Source of the DNA: Elusimicrobiota bacterium
GTDB lineage: Bacteria; CAYTYR01; UBA6262; DAOVJB01
DNA length: 9,136 nucleotides
Assembly (NCBI GenBank): GCA_030673425.1
Contig: DAOVJB010000035.1
Location: forward strand, 1 to 9,136
Reading direction: 5' to 3'
A model generated the notes under the pieces. It was not told where the DNA came from and ran no database searches. It saw only the letters and a program-made list of their open reading frames with translations. Every line of letters begins with the position of its first letter. Positions within the stretch are counted from its first letter, which is position 1. A program made the translations under genes and the position numbers. Positions 1,196 to 7,968 of this stretch are shown one piece after another.

Positions 1196-2425
1196 TTACA
1201 TTCCTCTACGAACAACTTTTATAATATCATACATAGGTAAAATTAAACTCATCGCAATAAATCCGACCATTCCACCCATCACAACAAGCAACACAGGCTC
1301 TATAACAGATGACAGGTTTCTTATTAAATTTTCCAGGTCCCTGTCATAAAAATCGGCTATCTTAATCATAAGCTTATCCACTGTGCCTGTTTCCTCCCCT
1401 ACAGGAATGATGTTTGTCACCAGCGGACTGAAAACACCGCTGTCTGCCATGGGTTTGCTTATACTGCCACCCCTTTTAACATTTAATGCAACCCTGTCCA
1501 GAACGCGGTTTATAACAACATTATTGGTTACTTCTTTACAAATCTCCAGTGTTTCAATAACCGTTATGCCGCTTGCAAGCAATATCCCGAAAACACGGGT
1601 AAATCTTCCAATTACCATCATATATACCAGATTCCCGAAAATAGGCATCTTAAGCTTAAGTTTATCTAAAAGAAATCTTCCTTTTCTGGTCTTCTTAAAC
1701 TGCTTAAAACCTACAATAAAAGCAACTATTCCTCCAAATAAAAGATAAATACGCTTTCGGATAAGAATACTTAATCCATCCAACATCCTTGTTGGCGCGG
1801 GTAATGTAACCCCTGCTGTCTTAAATATCTCAACAAACGTAGGCAGAACAAAGGTCACAAGAAAGAAAACCGCCGCAAAAGATATACAAAGCACCACTAC
1901 AGGATAGGTCATCGCAGACTTCATTTTTGACCTTAGCTCTTCATCTCTCTCACTGAATGAGGCCCAGCGGTTTAGGAGTTGATCCATACCGCCACCTACC
2001 TCTCCAGTATGAACCATTGCAACAAACAATCTTGAGAAAACCGCGGGATACCTCGCTAAAGCTAGAGAGAGCGGATTACCCTGGTTTATATCTTTGCGGA
2101 CATTATTTATAATCCTCTTAAATTTCGAATTCCGTGTCTGCCCTTCTAAAACATCAAATGCCTTGGTTAATGTTAATCCGGCTCCAATCATAGTGGATAA
2201 CTGCTGACAGAAGATAGTCTTATCCTTTTGAGGTACAGGCATTATGTTATCAATAAATTCCTGCAGGTCAAAAGACATAATGCTTTTCGTCTCTTTGGAG
2301 ACATTTGCTACAAAAAGACCTTTCCTGCGAAGAGACTCAATGGCATTATCTTCATCTACGGTTTCTATAGTCCCTTCGACTGTCTTGCCGGCCTTGTCAA
2401 AAGCCCTATACTTAAATACAGGCAT
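1196..2425 (-). CDS. pilC: Type IV pilus inner-membrane platform protein PilC (GspF family)
   Basis: PilC is the polytopic inner-membrane protein on which the PilB ATPase turns during pilin assembly. The 409-residue length is standard. It opens with MPVFKYRAFDKAGK and a VEGTIE strand, the usual start of PilC/GspF. Two repeated GspF domains follow: roughly residues 68-190, with GAGLTLTKAF and GEVGGGMDQLL, and 270-395, with LASGITVIETLE and PVGEETGTVDKLM. Hydrophobic segments are visible at about 172-196, 226-240 and 374-397; the last follows SSVIEPVLL, a conserved feature of the second domain. The ATG at 2425 has GCGGAGG five bases upstream. It starts 29 bp after pilB, and porG follows after 13 bp. 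No pilin, PilT or secretin gene is nearby, so a type II secretion GspF cannot be fully excluded, but the PilB partner and chemotaxis context favour pili. Confidence 0.93.
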   Translation of the reverse strand: MPVFKYRAFDKAGKTVEGTIETVDEDNAIESLRRKGLFVANVSKETKSIMSFDLQEFIDNIMPVPQKDKTIFCQQLSTMIGAGLTLTKAFDVLEGQTRNSKFKRIINNVRKDINQGNPLSLALARYPAVFSRLFVAMVHTGEVGGGMDQLLNRWASFSERDEELRSKMKSAMTYPVVVLCISFAAVFFLVTFVLPTFVEIFKTAGVTLPAPTRMLDGLSILIRKRIYLLFGGIVAFIVGFKQFKKTRKGRFLLDKLKLKMPIFGNLVYMMVIGRFTRVFGILLASGITVIETLEICKEVTNNVVINRVLDRVALNVKRGGSISKPMADSGVFSPLVTNIIPVGEETGTVDKLMIKIADFYDRDLENLIRNLSSVIEPVLLVVMGGMVGFIAMSLILPMYDIIKVVRRGM

Positions 2426-2454: not shown

Positions 2455-4158
2455 TTAGACTTCCTCGGTAACCCTCATTACCTCTTCTATGCTGGTAATT
2501 CCTTCTATAACCTGCCGCATTCCGTCCTCCATCAAGCTCTTCATCCCCGCATGAATTCCCGCCTGTCTGAGCATGTCTGTGGAAGGACGTCTGATAATCA
2601 AGTCCCTGACATAATGGTCAGGAACGAACAATTCATAAATACCTTGTCTGCCTCTATAACCTGTACCCTGGCAATATTTACATCCTTTCGGCTGATAAAA
2701 CTTGTATTCCTTGTCCAGCTCAAAACCGAGTGATTCCAGAGCTTCCTTGGTAGGAGTATATTCCTCCCTGCATTTCTCGCATAACCTACGGACCAACCGT
2801 TGCGCCAGCACGCCCAGGATCGCCGAAGAAATTAAGAACGGTTCTATTCCCATATCAACAAGACGTGTCACTGCGCCGGGGGCGTCATTAGTATGTAATG
2901 TGGAAAATACCAGATGTCCTGTCAACGCTGCTCTGATCGCGATCTCAGCAGTCTCCATGTCTCTTATCTCTCCTATCATTATAATATCAGGATCTTGCCT
3001 CATGACTGTTCTCAACACTTCCGCAAAATTCAAGCCCACCTTTGGATTAACCGGTATCTGGTTTATTGATCTCAACTCGTATTCTACAGGATCCTCAATA
3101 GTAATAATATTCTTGTCAAGAGTATTGATCTTGTCCAACGCAGCATAAAGGGTTGTTGTCTTGCCGCTTCCTGTTGGACCCGTAACAAGAATAATACCAT
3201 AAGGCTTTCTGACTAACTTTTCAAATATATCAAGGTTGTCCTGGGAAAATCCTAACTGTTCCAGACCAAAAGAGAAAGCACTTTTATCGAGTATTCTCAA
3301 CACTACCTTTTCACCATGAATAGTGGCAATAGTAGAGACACGGAAGGAAATTTCCTTCTCCCAGAACTTTACATGAAAACGCCCGTCCTGGGGTAATCTT
3401 TTCTCAGCAATATCCATATCAGCCATAACCTTGACACGGGAAATCATGGCCGCATGCAACCGTTTGGGAGGGGACATTATCTCATGTAATACACCGTCAA
3501 CCCTGAATCGTATGCGCAATATATTCTTATCCGGCTCGATATGGATGTCACTGGCCCTGCTCTGGATAGCCTGCATAATCACAGAGTTTATCAACTTGAT
3601 AACGGGCGCCTCATCCATAAGAGCCGCGGCGTCTCCCAAGTCCATATCACCTTTATCAGAGGTGATTACTTCTATACTCTCTTCTCCATCTGCAATCTCT
3701 TTCATTATTGCCAAAGAACGATAATACTGGTCAATAGCACGCAGAATTTTAACTTCTGAGGAAATAGCAGGTTCAATTTTACATTTACTTATATATTTTA
3801 AGTTATCAAGCGCCACGACATCAAAGGGGTCGCTCATTGCTACTGTCAGGGTATCGGCAATCTTAAACAAGGGGAAAGACTGATACTTGCGTGCCATTTT
3901 CTCAGGAATTAATTTTACCACTTCAGGGTCGATGCTATACGTGCTTAGATTAATATGGGGGATGCCTAACTGCTCACCCAGGTAATCCATCATCTTGTCT
4001 TCTTCAACCATGCCCAGCTTGACCAGGATTTTACCTATTCTTTCCCCTGTTCTCTGCTGTGTTTCTAACGCTTCAAGCAGTTGATCCTCGCTAATCAAAC
4101 CAGCTTCCCGAAGTATCTCCCCTAATCTTTTCTTCTTTTTCTTCTCTGGCTCAGCCAA
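2455..4158 (-). CDS. pilB: Type IV pilus assembly ATPase PilB (GspE family) with N-terminal MshEN-type domain
   Basis: PilB is the cytoplasmic hexameric ATPase that powers pilus extension. The 567 residues divide into an N-terminal MshEN-like region with two motifs, RLGEILREAG...LLEALETQ (11-34) and RIGKILVKLG...LGEQLG (40-65), a linker, and the catalytic core. Core motifs are Walker A GPTGSGKTT (327-335), Asp box TIEDPVEY (353-360), Walker B ending in GEIRD (396-400), His box GHLVFSTLHTNDA (414-426) and a zinc tetracysteine (Cys460, 463, 493, 496). MshEN motifs of this form bind c-di-GMP in MshE/PilB proteins (family knowledge; binding here is inferred). The start codon is TTG at 4158: there is no ATG or GTG between it and the upstream stop near 4210, AGGGGGA sits six bases upstream, and the RLGEIL motif begins at residue 11 as usual. 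pilC follows after 29 bp. Confidence 0.94.
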   Translation of the reverse strand: MAEPEKKKKKRLGEILREAGLISEDQLLEALETQQRTGERIGKILVKLGMVEEDKMMDYLGEQLGIPHINLSTYSIDPEVVKLIPEKMARKYQSFPLFKIADTLTVAMSDPFDVVALDNLKYISKCKIEPAISSEVKILRAIDQYYRSLAIMKEIADGEESIEVITSDKGDMDLGDAAALMDEAPVIKLINSVIMQAIQSRASDIHIEPDKNILRIRFRVDGVLHEIMSPPKRLHAAMISRVKVMADMDIAEKRLPQDGRFHVKFWEKEISFRVSTIATIHGEKVVLRILDKSAFSFGLEQLGFSQDNLDIFEKLVRKPYGIILVTGPTGSGKTTTLYAALDKINTLDKNIITIEDPVEYELRSINQIPVNPKVGLNFAEVLRTVMRQDPDIIMIGEIRDMETAEIAIRAALTGHLVFSTLHTNDAPGAVTRLVDMGIEPFLISSAILGVLAQRLVRRLCEKCREEYTPTKEALESLGFELDKEYKFYQPKGCKYCQGTGYRGRQGIYELFVPDHYVRDLIIRRPSTDMLRQAGIHAGMKSLMEDGMRQVIEGITSIEEVMRVTEEV

Positions 4159-4356: not shown

Positions 4357-4971
4357 TTAAGCAAGGAGCCCCATAGATTTAAGAATAGTATCCAAGGCCC
4401 CGGGGTTAGGTAAGAAGAACATATGCCCGTCCAACTTAGTTCCGGCAACAGAAAGCTCTGTTTTGATAAATACAACGTCGTCTGCCACTTCCCCTATCTC
4501 TATCAATATAAAATCAAGTATTGCACCGGCCATATCATTAGCTAAATCAGGAACCGAGGGTACCAATAATATACCAAGCATCTGGGTCAAGGCATTTAAG
4601 TATGAACCACATAAGATATTACCTACTTCTGTCAGCGCTGAACGTGCGACGTCTGAAGAAAGGTCCATTTCCTGATTTGATTCTCTGTTCAGCACACTAA
4701 TTAATTCCGAGGCACTTTCTTCGGTAATTAAAAACAACATCGTACCTGAGATATCACCAAGCACTCCTGAATAAACTATAAAAACATATCTCTCCGGACC
4801 CACTACCTCAGGAATCTGTTGTAAAGGTATAATAGACACCTCAGGAACACTAATATCTACTGTCTGTTCAACTATTTGACTTAAGGCAGTGGCAGCATTA
4901 CCTGCTCCTATATTTCCCAATTCCTTTAAAGCATCAAGGTGAATTTGTGTTAATTTTCTTCCATCAGCCAT
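4357..4971 (-). CDS. cheC: CheY-P phosphatase CheC
   Basis: CheC dephosphorylates CheY-P and forms a complex with CheD, linking the response regulator to adaptation. At 204 residues it is the usual size. Both halves of the pseudo-symmetric fold keep the phosphatase signature (D/S)-x3-E-x2-N: Asp13, Glu17, Asn20 in LDALKELGNIGAGNA, and Ser111, Glu115, Asn118 in SALTEVGNILCGS. Both active sites therefore look intact, as in Thermotoga CheC and unlike one-site relatives such as CheX. The family's second-strand region (SGVLGDISGTMLFLI) is present at about 68-82. The ATG at 4971 has AAAGGA upstream. It follows hpt after 33 bp and precedes the 198-bp pilB leader. With CheD two genes upstream, a CheC-CheD complex is very likely. 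Confidence 0.94.
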   Translation of the reverse strand: MADGRKLTQIHLDALKELGNIGAGNAATALSQIVEQTVDISVPEVSIIPLQQIPEVVGPERYVFIVYSGVLGDISGTMLFLITEESASELISVLNRESNQEMDLSSDVARSALTEVGNILCGSYLNALTQMLGILLVPSVPDLANDMAGAILDFILIEIGEVADDVVFIKTELSVAGTKLDGHMFFLPNPGALDTILKSMGLLA

Positions 4972-5004: not shown

Positions 5005-5388
5005 TTAAGAGCTAACATTTAATCCTTTAAGTTCATTCAAAAGATTATCTATCTGGATACCCGAATCTTTACCATCTTTTACATCTGTCACTAAAACACC
5101 TAAGGTATCCAGCCCTTTGGACAGAACAGCCATTACCTCGCTATTTATTTCTTTTTTGTTAACACAAAAACTGTTAAGAATTTCCTCCATTTGTTGCGAA
5201 ACTCGGGTTAATTTATCGAAATTCATCATGCCTGCCATACCTTTGAGTGTATGGGCTAACCTCATAGCTTCCGTGGTTTCATCAAACGCCGCCGGGTTTT
5301 TTTGTATCTCGTTAAATGAAGACTTCAATCCGTCCAGCTGTTTCTGGCTTTCTGTAAGAAATAATTCTTTGTACTGGTTTAATTCCAT
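5005..5388 (-). CDS. Free-standing histidine phosphotransfer (Hpt) protein, CheA P1-like
   Basis: This 127-residue, all-helical protein is essentially one Hpt domain. The phosphoacceptor motif is AHTLKGMAGMMNFDKL with His46, closest in style to the P1 domain of CheA (AHS/TLKGxAGMMxF), not to HPt domains of hybrid-kinase relays. The N-terminus (YKELFLTESQKQLDGL) is also CheA-P1-like. Nothing resembling the P2, dimerisation, ATPase or CheW-like domains of CheA follows: the frame stops at 5005 and cheC begins 33 bp later. It may be a phosphate donor, shuttle or sink for CheY, phosphorylated by a kinase encoded elsewhere. A start at 5388 is supported by GGAGGG nine bases away. It is either a split-off CheA P1 or an independently evolved Hpt; the sequence cannot tell which. 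Confidence 0.85.
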   Translation of the reverse strand: MELNQYKELFLTESQKQLDGLKSSFNEIQKNPAAFDETTEAMRLAHTLKGMAGMMNFDKLTRVSQQMEEILNSFCVNKKEINSEVMAVLSKGLDTLGVLVTDVKDGKDSGIQIDNLLNELKGLNVSS

Positions 5389-5419: not shown

Positions 5420-5911
5420 TTAAATTTCTTTTATTCCCCAGGCAATAGTTCTTATCTTAACCTTGCCTGTTTCCAGATCAAATTCTATCGAACGTCCGTA
5501 ATCTCCGCCGACATCTTCAGAAACAACCTTGATTTTTTCATCAGTCAATGCCTGCCTGGCGTTCAATATATTTCTCTCACCTACATTAAAAGCACTAGGG
5601 TTACTAATCTTGACCCCTGTAAACATATGCGCTCCGCCTACTATTTTACCCTCTAAATTACTCTTGCGGGCGCCGAGTTTTCTCATCTTGGCTATCATTT
5701 CTTTTATGGCCGAGTTGGCAAATTTCGCCTTATTACGGCGTACCCTGACGCTGTTGATATCCGGCAACATTATGTGGGCCATGCCTCCAACCTTTTTCAC
5801 AGGATCATATAATATAATTCCCAAACAGGAACCGAGCCCTAACGTGGTTAAAACATTGGGACTTACCGAAGCTTTTAAATCCGCCATGCCTATTTTGATT
5901 ACTTCCTTCAT
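5420..5911 (-). CDS. cheD: Chemoreceptor glutamine deamidase CheD
   Basis: CheD deamidates selected glutamines of chemoreceptors and is controlled by binding CheC. At 163 residues it has the usual length. The catalytic set of the family is visible: Thr23 and Cys29 in LTTLGLGSCLGI and His46 in GGMAHIMLP, offset by two from the numbering I recall for Thermotoga CheD (Thr21, Cys27, His44). The VGGAHMF segment (91-97) and the GERN stretch (111-114) are further family marks. The ATG at 5911 has AGGAAAAG upstream. It begins a second transcription unit: cheY is separated from it by a hairpin terminator, and a TATAAT lies 17 bp before the ATG. hpt starts 31 bp after its stop. Its substrates, the chemoreceptors, are not in this window. 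Confidence 0.95.
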   Translation of the reverse strand: MKEVIKIGMADLKASVSPNVLTTLGLGSCLGIILYDPVKKVGGMAHIMLPDINSVRVRRNKAKFANSAIKEMIAKMRKLGARKSNLEGKIVGGAHMFTGVKISNPSAFNVGERNILNARQALTDEKIKVVSEDVGGDYGRSIEFDLETGKVKIRTIAWGIKEI

Positions 5912-5983: not shown

Positions 5984-6025
5984 AAAAAATCAGCCTGAGT
6001 AAAGTATAAATTAATACCTCAGGCT
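5984..6025 (-). terminator. Rho-independent terminator after cheY, overlapping its stop codon
   Basis: On the minus strand AGCCTGAG pairs perfectly with CTCAGGCT (8 bp; plus-strand arms 6018-6025 and 5992-5999). Inside the loop GTAT and ATAC can add a second 4-bp stem. The 3' arm is followed by GATTTTTT (six T, 5984-5989). The first two bases of the 5' arm belong to the cheY TAG stop codon, so a ribosome terminating there could affect folding. It divides comFB-cheR-cheY from cheD-hpt-cheC. Confidence 0.8.
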
Positions 6026-6407
6026 ACCCTTCCAGAACTCTCCTTACAGCTTCAATAACTCTTGACGGCTGAAATGGTTTGGTCACAAAGTCTTTTGCTC
6101 CTGCTTGAATAGCTTCTACAACAAGGGCATGCTGTCCCATAGCACTTACCATCAAAACTCTACCCTTAGGATCTATCTTCATTATTTCTTTGACTGCACC
6201 AATACCATCAATATCATCTATCTTTGGCATCACTATGTCCATTGTCACAAGATCGGGTTTTATCTGCTGATACTTCTCAATGGCTTCTCTCCCGTTCTCT
6301 GCCTCCCCGCAGATTTCATACCCCTCTTTCTTCAGGATATCTCCAATCATCCTGCGCATGAACACAGCATCATCAACTACTAAAATCTTAGCTGGATTGA
6401 CCGGCAT
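6024..6407 (-). CDS. cheY: Chemotaxis response regulator CheY (single receiver domain)
   Basis: This 127-residue stand-alone receiver is phosphorylated by a CheA-type kinase and in its active form binds its motility target. The receiver residues are present: Asp12-Asp13 (ILVVDDA), phosphoacceptor Asp57 in TMDIVMP, Ser88 in VSAMGQ and Lys110 in TKPFQPSRV. The SAMGQ and KPFQPSRV segments match the Thermotoga/clostridial CheY type that works with CheC and CheD. One oddity is seen: after MP(60-61) the sequence reads KIDDIDGIGAVKEI, where the family normally has about E-M-N/D-G-I-x-A-V-K-E-I, so roughly three residues are inserted next to the phosphorylation site. The gene has GGGAGGG about eight bases before its ATG and lies 65 bp after cheR. 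Its stop codon is part of a terminator. Its target may be the pilus system instead of a flagellar switch. Confidence 0.95.
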   Translation of the reverse strand: MPVNPAKILVVDDAVFMRRMIGDILKKEGYEICGEAENGREAIEKYQQIKPDLVTMDIVMPKIDDIDGIGAVKEIMKIDPKGRVLMVSAMGQHALVVEAIQAGAKDFVTKPFQPSRVIEAVRRVLEG

Positions 6408-6428: not shown

Positions 6429-6475
6429 AAAATTTTTTAATTCTGCTGCTTTTGACTCTTGCTTAAAATTTTTTA
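6429..6475. repeat. Direct repeat of an A4T6A tract between cheR and cheY
   Basis: The 11-mer AAAATTTTTTA occurs at 6429-6439 and again at 6465-6475, 36 bp apart start to start. The second copy includes the cheR stop codon. These are A-tract/T-tract blocks that may bend DNA. No clear promoter lies here, and chance in AT-rich sequence is possible. Confidence 0.4.
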
Positions 6476-7576
6476 GCGTGCTCTCTGGTAAATTCTCTCT
6501 CTCGCACTCACGCGTTTAAAAAATTTCTGTCCTTCTATCGGGAGCATTTCAACCTTACCCGTAATCAGAAAACCACCAGGATTAAGAACGCTGTAGAACC
6601 GCTTGTACAGTTTATCCTGAAGCTCCCGGTTAAAATAAATCATTACGTTACGGCAGAATATCACATCAATCTTACCTGGCGGCCTGTCAGATATCAGATT
6701 GTGATATTGCAGCCTGACTATATCCTTTATTTCCTTTTTAAGTTTATACGTTATTTCATCCGGACGGTCAAAATATTTAAGCAGAAGAGTTTTGCTTATT
6801 TTTTCAATACTCCTGCGTTCATACACCGCATGTTGTGCATGTTCCAAAATCTCTTTATCAATATCTGTAGCATAAATAGTTGTTGAAAATCTCCACGACT
6901 CAGCTTCTAATTCTTCCTTGATGAGCATGGCGATGGAATACGGTTCCTCGCCTCCCGCGCATCCTGCACTCCATATTTTTATAGTATGTGCATTCACACC
7001 TTTCTTTTTGCGAATCAAGGGTTTAAGTACTAAATTTCTAAAGGCTTCAAATGTTTCCGGGTTCCTGAAAAACTCTGAAACATTTATAGTTAAAGTATTA
7101 AAAAATTCCGCATATTCCGTCGGGTCACTCAATAAAATACGCAAGTACTCTGCGTACGAACGGACCTTTCTCGCCCGCATCCTTACAGCGATTCTTCTTT
7201 TCAGGCATTTTTCCTGGTACTGGCGGCAATCCAATCCACGGTCACTGAAAATTTTCTCAAGAAGAATCCTGAAAGCCTGATCCTCACCGTACAGGAGTTT
7301 GGTTTCTAACTGATGACGCGGATTTTCATCTATCGCATCAATTGCTTCTTCTATTTTTCTTTTAACTTCTAATTGATATTCACTTTTGGTCTGTTCAATT
7401 ACCGTATATATACTACCGACATCAGTGGTAACATACTTGGGATGAAGCCTGTTTAATGCATAAGCTATTATATCTATTCTGCATTGCTGGCACCTGCAGA
7501 CATCCTTTCTTGAGTCCATGGCCTTTCCCAATGCATCAATGACCAAATCCTCCATTATATTTTTAAGCTCTTCCAT
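6473..7576 (-). CDS. cheR: CheR chemoreceptor methyltransferase with an N-terminal ComFB-like domain
   Basis: CheR transfers methyl groups from S-adenosylmethionine to glutamates of chemoreceptors. At 367 residues it is some 80-90 longer than usual because of an extra front domain. Residues 1-89 match the late-competence ComFB family, with the metal-type cluster CRCQQC (Cys27, 29, 32) followed by RIDIIAYALNRLHPKYV (33-49). CheR proper starts near residue 95: helical N-domain, INVSEFFR (164-171; Ser where Thr is common), SAM-binding IWSAGCAGGEEPYSIAM (201-217), ATDID (236-240), FCRNVMIYF (307-315) and a closing GGFLITGKVE (334-343). The ATG at 7576 is preceded by a purine-rich AAGGTAGG. The upstream gene encodes the same front domain alone, 18 bp away. 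ComFB proteins have been reported as cyclic-dinucleotide receptors in cyanobacteria; that this domain controls the methyltransferase is inference. Confidence 0.93.
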   Translation of the reverse strand: MEELKNIMEDLVIDALGKAMDSRKDVCRCQQCRIDIIAYALNRLHPKYVTTDVGSIYTVIEQTKSEYQLEVKRKIEEAIDAIDENPRHQLETKLLYGEDQAFRILLEKIFSDRGLDCRQYQEKCLKRRIAVRMRARKVRSYAEYLRILLSDPTEYAEFFNTLTINVSEFFRNPETFEAFRNLVLKPLIRKKKGVNAHTIKIWSAGCAGGEEPYSIAMLIKEELEAESWRFSTTIYATDIDKEILEHAQHAVYERRSIEKISKTLLLKYFDRPDEITYKLKKEIKDIVRLQYHNLISDRPPGKIDVIFCRNVMIYFNRELQDKLYKRFYSVLNPGGFLITGKVEMLPIEGQKFFKRVSARERIYQRAR

Positions 7577-7594
7577 TGCCTACCTTAAAATCAT

Positions 7595-7861
7595 TTATTT
7601 ATGACGAGGTCGCTTGCTGATTATCCTTATAGCCTTAATGACTTCCCTTACAATATCAGCCTGGAACTGGGTCGTCAGTTCATCAAGCCTGGTATGAACA
7701 TGTCCCCTCTGGCTGACGACATACTTCGGCGGAAGATGATTCAAGGCACGGGTCATCATATCTAAACGGCATTGCTCACATGTGCAGATATTTTTTTTAT
7801 CAACAAGAATCCTGTTTACCTGTTCCCTGACAATATCCTCCAGATAATTTTTAATTTTCAT
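7595..7861 (-). CDS. Small free-standing ComFB-like protein
   Basis: This 88-residue protein belongs to the ComFB (late competence development protein) family. The signature is ICTCEQCRLD with Cys26, 28 and 31, then ALNHLPPKYVVSQRG (39-53) and a helical tail ending in PRHK. By hand it is identical to the front domain of the following CheR at about 24 of 65 aligned positions, and it stops exactly where that domain joins the methyltransferase (PRHK-stop against PRHQ-LETKLL). Bacillus ComFB lies in a competence operon and its role is unclear. Cyanobacterial ComFB has been reported to bind cyclic dinucleotides and to affect pilus-dependent processes. Here it heads the chemotaxis unit, 18 bp before cheR. 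AAAAGGAG lies 13 bases before the ATG, a rather long spacing, but no other in-frame start exists. Its function in this locus is inferred. Confidence 0.85.
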   Translation of the reverse strand: MKIKNYLEDIVREQVNRILVDKKNICTCEQCRLDMMTRALNHLPPKYVVSQRGHVHTRLDELTTQFQADIVREVIKAIRIISKRPRHK

Positions 7862-7941
7862 AAGAGTTTTTCATCTCCTTTTATTGCGGAAAATCATTCT
7901 GAGATTCTTACTTAGAAAATAATTACCTAATTAATAAAAAA

Positions 7942-7968
7942 ATAACATAAAAAATCATCCATTGTCAA
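7942..7968 (-). promoter_or_regulatory. Candidate promoter for comFB-cheR-cheY
   Basis: In the 119-bp gap between proB and the ComFB gene the minus strand has a perfect TTGACA (7963-7968). A TGTTAT follows at 15-bp spacing (7942-7947), or TTATTT at 17 bp (7940-7945). The -35 is strong but the -10 weak. The stretch downstream is very AT-rich. A leader of about 75 bases would precede the ComFB start. Confidence 0.5.

Follow-up and report, generated by a model that had tools for sequence, protein, structure and literature searches.

A ComFB domain fused to, and encoded beside, the adaptation methyltransferase CheR: a candidate second-messenger module at a type IV pilus locus

Findings

A 9,136-nucleotide stretch of DNA from an Elusimicrobiota bacterium, hereafter called the window, encodes a CheR methyltransferase whose N-terminal part is a ComFB domain, with a stand-alone ComFB gene next to it and both chemosensory and type IV pilus genes in the same string. 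We lean toward the view that ComFB acts as a regulatory module through which a second messenger controls CheR, both from a separate protein in trans and from a fused domain in cis, and that the chemosensory system concerned here is probably that of type IV pili. A wider formulation, about which we are nearly evenly divided but tend slightly to doubt, is that ComFB is a dedicated second-messenger subunit of CheR in Omnitrophota and the lineage of the window, with CheR as the first enzyme identified as its direct output, and with free and fused forms, the fused one sometimes in tandem, where one copy keeps and the other has lost the conserved core.

Domain architecture and genomic context

The sequence-only reading had taken the N-terminal residues of the methyltransferase, and the whole of the adjacent small protein, to be ComFB. 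Profile searches bear this out: residues 5-86 of the fusion match the Pfam ComFB profile PF10719 over profile positions 1-83 of 83 (86.4 bits, E 1.3e-24), and residues 4-85 of the stand-alone protein match its full length (92.8 bits, E 1.4e-26), the curated Pfam cut-off being 25 bits. The motifs CxCxxCR and ALNxLxPKYV, which had been noticed by eye as a shared signature, occur in both copies, and their alignment contains 30 identical (34%) and 61 similar positions out of 87 with 0 gaps (E 1e-24), consistent with an earlier hand count of 24 of 65 identities. The free ComFB lies 18 bp upstream of the fusion on the same strand and the two are probably co-transcribed; proB is upstream of the free ComFB, also on this strand. 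Promoter-like sites such as the one listed in Table 1 are no commoner in the whole region than in shuffles.

The CheR part of the fusion (~270 residues) is complete, with both the CheR_N and the SAM-binding domain recovered by Pfam. Its R171 and D238 are invariant across all 48 aligned CheRs and Y314 is kept in at least 90% of them; among solved structures, B. subtilis CheR (5ftw) and Salmonella CheR are the best matches. Pfam searches yielded no PilZ match in either the fusion or the free ComFB, and no TPR repeats in the fusion at E values up to 1, so that these are neither PilZ-type regulators nor a CheR-TPR protein. The stand-alone protein had also been observed to stop exactly at the fusion joint (PRHK-stop in the free copy, PRHQ-LETK in the fused one). 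This shared terminus is confirmed, but it was rejected as the mark of a recent joining event: because stand-alone ComFBs of many genomes likewise stop at or just past P-x-H, the position corresponding to the fourth zinc ligand (Cys or His) of B. subtilis ComFB (PMC4381287), the joint is a domain boundary at the usual end of the ComFB fold.

Table 1. Features of the window
Feature	Positions	Strand	Evidence
PilC-type pilus platform protein	1196..2425	-	PF00482 9.2e-59
PilB-type type IV pilus ATPase	2455..4158	-	PF00437 5.4e-145, MshEN PF05157 4.5e-22
Tandem 24-residue MshEN motif, 5-residue spacer, in PilB	3970..4128	-	pattern match
CheC/CheX-type protein	4357..4971	-	PF04509 2.1e-26, PF13690 1.8e-11
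Hpt protein	5005..5388	-	PF01627 2.8e-14
CheD	5420..5911	-	PF03975 5.7e-34
CheY	6024..6407	-	PF00072 5.8e-30
ComFB-CheR fusion, 367 aa	6473..7576	-	PF10719 + PF03705 + PF01739, all above cut-off
CheR SAM-binding domain of fusion, residues 165-359	6500..7084	-	PF01739 199.1 bits
CheR_N domain of fusion, residues 101-152	7121..7276	-	PF03705 44.4 bits
ComFB / CheR_N joint, residues 87-100, predicted flexible	7277..7318	-	low pLDDT
ComFB domain of fusion, residues 5-86	7319..7564	-	Pfam
Stand-alone ComFB, 88 aa; CxCxxC and His near C-terminus	7595..7861	-	PF10719 E 1.4e-26
Promoter-like site TTGACA-18-TATTTT, 5' of stand-alone ComFB	7939..7968	-	suggestive only

The two copies of the MshEN motif in PilB span residues 11-34 and 40-63, the second beginning RIG instead of RLG; a tandem 24-residue motif of this kind with a 5-residue spacer binds c-di-GMP (PMC5013675). 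After pilC, at positions 1-1215 and on the same strand, are genes for three subunits of a 2-oxoacid:ferredoxin oxidoreductase (the start of alpha, a delta-like ferredoxin, and gamma, the last being the one checked with Pfam). There is no Rfam match within the window.

Predicted structure and conserved residues

The AF2 model of the fusion (mean pLDDT 90.8, pTM 0.69, pLDDT below 50 at residues 91-93) is as for two well-folded domains joined loosely, and the relative placement of ComFB and CheR in it is uninformative because the joint is of low confidence and the pTM is 0.69. Its CheR part matches 5ftw (Z 29.4 over 254 residues) and the CheR1 subunit of the MapZ/c-di-GMP complex 5xly (Z 28.3). 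For the ComFB fold the stand-alone copy (AF2 model, pLDDT 79.7) was the query, and it matches B. subtilis ComFB 4wai (Z 9.2, 85 residues, 2.9 A) and the c-di-GMP-bound Synechocystis CdgR 8hja (Z 9.1), on a scale where unrelated entries reach Z 7.2. Zinc ligands and five dimer-interface positions have been defined for B. subtilis ComFB (PMC4381287). The predicted zinc ligands of the fusion are C27, C29, C32 and H88, the histidine lying just past the domain, with equivalents in the free copy; all five dimer-interface positions are kept in the fusion (N6, E9, D35, N42 and Y48) and in the free ComFB as well.

Phyletic distribution and pairing with CheR

The search for other ComFB-CheR architectures and their neighborhoods, suggested in the sequence-only reading, proved productive. 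A profile built from four fusions was run against 384 genomes of the Omnitrophota phylum, 25 of which proved to carry full-length fusions, and the bin that holds the window includes a second fusion (contig C66, L016:12111-13202; 363 aa, 47% identical to that of the window), which is assigned to this genome by binning. The C66 gene is directly 3' of rnhB in a trmD-rplS-rnhB string. The same profile, run against 386 broadly drawn genomes, found no fusion except in the window's own genome, the matches in 208 of them being nearly all due to the CheR part. In a first sample of 97 genomes ten others have ComFB, unfused to CheR, and the four same-class relatives in the set each carry a plain CheR, with ComFB found in none. 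A pattern search combined with tblastn detected no related ComFB in virus contigs. The ComFB-CheR fusion is thus a real, recurrent and lineage-restricted architecture.

Omnitrophota contamination of the contig carrying the window was considered and rejected: its PilB shares 68-69% identity with the orthologues of three same-class genomes and at most 54%, in full-length matches, with those of the Omnitrophota genomes compared, so that the contig belongs to the lineage it was assigned to. The pilB-pilC locus of these three same-class genomes is devoid of chemosensory genes. Elsewhere in the window's genome, inventoried by family searches, contig C134 carries a single plain CheR in a pilNOPQ-CheW-MCP-CheR-CheY-CheB string, which includes the one MCP detected in this genome; same-class genomes share much of this layout, continuing into CheA.

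The fused form is accompanied by an adjacent one. Of the 25 fusion-bearing genomes, 22 also have a free ComFB gene immediately 5' of a plain CheR, a frequency that does not estimate the one in all Omnitrophota because these genomes were picked for carrying fusions. The gaps or overlaps between the two genes are mostly below 60 bp, and the commonest order is CheA - FtsA-like - ComFB - CheR - CheY - CheD - CheB - CheC - CheW. The window also has the order ComFB - CheR - CheY - CheD, with the fusion in the CheR position. A motif search around 36 ComFB loci of other phyla, some on short stretches, found no CheR. That two proteins occur both fused and as neighbors is a classical sign of a working partnership, and since both forms recur here, they point to CheR as the functional partner of ComFB.

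Origin of the fusion and of the free copy

In the tree of CheR domains 30 fusions, including the C66 copy, form one clade (100/99), with the window fusion outside it. Constraining all fusions to a single clade is not rejected in either tree (p-AU 0.27 for CheR, 0.09 for ComFB), nor is a grouping of the window CheR with the operon CheRs (p 0.18). Because the single clade is unrejected, the sequences remain compatible with one or two fusion events.

The free ComFB of the window falls in the clade of free ComFBs adjacent to plain CheRs (100/98), where it sits inside a 91/90 group of the ComFB tree; an origin as a recent duplicate of the fused domain is not supported. Because of this clustering we regard it as being of the operon-partner type, for which an action in trans on CheR is more likely. 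The sequence-only reading had instead proposed that it competes or pairs with the fused copy. The dimer-interface residues kept in both copies would allow such heterodimers, and the genes are close enough for joint expression, but the free copy is no duplicate of the fused domain; we consider this role, which would be compatible with the regulatory module favored above, possible though rather unlikely and not the best guess.

Proposed mechanism and its alternatives

Under the model in which ComFB is a second-messenger module of CheR, the ComFB half would dimerize and bind a cyclic dinucleotide, most likely c-di-GMP. With ligand bound, ComFB would move on its flexible joint (residues 87-100) relative to CheR_N, which presumably contacts the receptor, and receptors would then be methylated at a changed rate. 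Of the two possible signs, inhibition at high c-di-GMP is the more probable, given that c-di-GMP-MapZ inhibits CheR1 and that the CheR activity of FrzF is held back by its TPR part. The result would be a sensory adaptation matched to the sessile or motile state, as proposed from the presence of CheY, CheD, Hpt, CheC/X and the MshEN-bearing PilB in the same gene string. The ligand site is predicted from family membership and from the conserved core, which partly serves the dimer interface.

It is conceivable that ComFB is instead a ligand-free dimerization or docking module, which pairs CheRs or recruits the enzyme to receptor arrays or to the base of the pilus. Conservation of the five interface positions in the window fusion would fit such a role, as would certain fusions in which the zinc motif is kept and the LNxLPPxY..G core is degraded, namely three tandem second fusions and a small fusion clade. 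Since ComFB is still fused in these proteins (L144, L145 and L146 among them), ligand binding is perhaps not its sole role, and some fused ComFBs may have given it up. However, the LNxLxxxY..G core shared with CdgR is retained in most fusions and in all 22 free ComFBs next to CheR, c-di-GMP genes cluster around the ComFB/CheR pairs, and a pure dimerizer would need no free partner gene beside a plain CheR. We therefore judge a ligand-free module unlikely.

As to the messenger of the regulatory module, members of the ComFB/CdgR family bind both c-di-GMP and c-di-AMP (PMC12313861, PMC13075795), and the earlier identification of ComFB as a cyclic-dinucleotide receptor family agrees with the Synechocystis data (PMC12313861). 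The window's genome encodes two strong REC-GAF-GGDEF proteins and a CdaA-type diadenylate cyclase, and can therefore make both nucleotides. Every one of the 25 fusion genomes contains GGDEF domains, with between 4 and 18 matches per genome. Of 24 Omnitrophota fusion neighborhoods, 9 encode PilZ proteins at most 1.5 kb away from the fusion, all above the Pfam cut-off and in three arrangements; these counts of PilZ and GGDEF neighbors come from related genomes and are not fully independent. Four of the nine have a ComFB-CheR - REC-GGDEF - PilZ string (L111, L113, L118 and L120, the PilZ protein being ~100 aa), and the motif is GGDDF in the three REC-GGDEF proteins of this string whose sequence was read. 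PilZ genes also occur within four free-ComFB chemotaxis operons, and seven genomes have a REC-GAF-GGDEF gene 7-8 kb upstream of the fusion, separated from it by housekeeping genes. GGDEF and PilZ genes are absent from the operon of the window itself, whose link to c-di-GMP consists of the PilB MshEN motif and cyclases on other contigs. On account of the universal GGDEF domains, the PilZ/GGDEF neighbors and the MshEN motif, c-di-GMP is the favored ligand. Gating by c-di-AMP, which would work in the same way but tie adaptation to the envelope or osmotic state, appears quite unlikely to us: Synechocystis ComFB does bind it at 2.6 uM (PMC12313861) and a DAC domain is found in 21 of the 25 fusion genomes besides the CdaA-type enzyme noted above, but no DAC gene was seen near the fusions, whereas the c-di-GMP genes listed above lie close by, and no DAC was detected in four of the genomes, whose assemblies are perhaps incomplete.

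Second-messenger gating of CheR had been proposed together with gating by a metal; the former is the better supported by the pairing with CheR and the c-di-GMP genes, whereas control by ComFB as a zinc or redox sensor, a role floated for B. subtilis ComFB (PMC4381287) and consistent with CxCxxC being kept in all 28 fusions scanned, is very improbable because six free ComFBs adjoining plain CheRs (L128, L131, L132, L133, L135 and L147) have dropped the CxCxxC cysteines yet retain the LNRLxARY..G core, cyanobacterial CdgR also lacks them, and B. subtilis ComFB holds its zinc tightly (PMC4381287). The zinc ligands accordingly look structural rather than sensory.

Relationship to known systems

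The assertion that no characterized CheR is controlled in this way was too strong, given MapZ-CheR1 and FrzF. In P. aeruginosa c-di-GMP inhibits CheR1 through the PilZ adaptor MapZ (PMC6370697; structure 5xly), so that messenger control of CheR is a known principle, operating in trans. As in the proposed ComFB-CheR system, c-di-GMP there controls the adaptation methyltransferase; however, MapZ is a separate PilZ adaptor and its target is flagellar chemotaxis, whereas in the window the receptor would be ComFB, as part of the CheR chain or as the product of the adjacent gene, in a locus with type IV pilus genes. FrzF of M. xanthus, a CheR whose fused TPR domain keeps methylation in check (PMC3447774), resembles the window fusion in combining CheR with an extra regulatory domain, but its TPR repeats bind proteins, while the ComFB domain is N-terminal and likely a small-ligand receptor.

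The ComFB/CdgR family (4wai, 8hja) shares with the window domain its sequence family, fold and dimer residues, and its members are cyclic-dinucleotide receptors. Those described stand alone, with DevH, pilus biogenesis or competence as the output (PMC4381287, PMC12313861), unlike the window protein, which has its output enzyme in the same chain. Loss of comFB in cyanobacteria results in less PilJ and CheA of the pilus taxis systems and in hyperpiliation (PMC12313861), which ties ComFB to pilus chemosensing. The MshEN domain (PMC5013675), whose tandem c-di-GMP motif the window PilB also carries, is a receptor of another fold on another protein; its presence suggests that one messenger may reach both the pilus motor and the adaptation enzyme.

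A preprint on the ComFB/CdgR family (Samir et al. 2024, 10.1101/2024.11.10.622515) is cited in PMC12955456. Text searches of the literature, with that family paper outside their scope, returned no combination of ComFB with CheR, and action of ComFB on CheR in cis appears to be new. The outputs linked so far to cyanobacterial ComFB are the transcription factor DevH and pilus genes; the repeated association with CheR would give ComFB a direct partner that is an enzyme and is open to assay in vitro. It raises the possibilities that an internal signal directly tunes the adaptation of pilus-driven movement and that cyclic-dinucleotide control of adaptation evolved more than once, by PilZ in Pseudomonas and by ComFB here, and it gives a starting point for the study of pilus-based chemosensing in nearly uncultured phyla.

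Variant architectures

The tandem fusions are at L110:5450-7683, L112:1764-3874 and L114:251-2488; their second copy keeps CxCxxC and P-x-H and has no Pfam ComFB match at E 0.01. A 543-aa ComFB-CheR (L120:4650-6281) has ~175 additional N-terminal residues with no Pfam match. ComFBs with a C-terminal extension of ~130-150 aa occur in Spirochaete / Brevinematales genomes (L039:4998-5738, L041, L054, L055:5001-5654 and L056), the extension having no Pfam match in the two scanned. In eight genomes (L103-L109 and L020) a divergent CheC-like protein (~217-244 aa) abuts the fusion upstream, and in three of these a free ComFB of fused-type ancestry is inserted between the CheC-like gene and the fusion.
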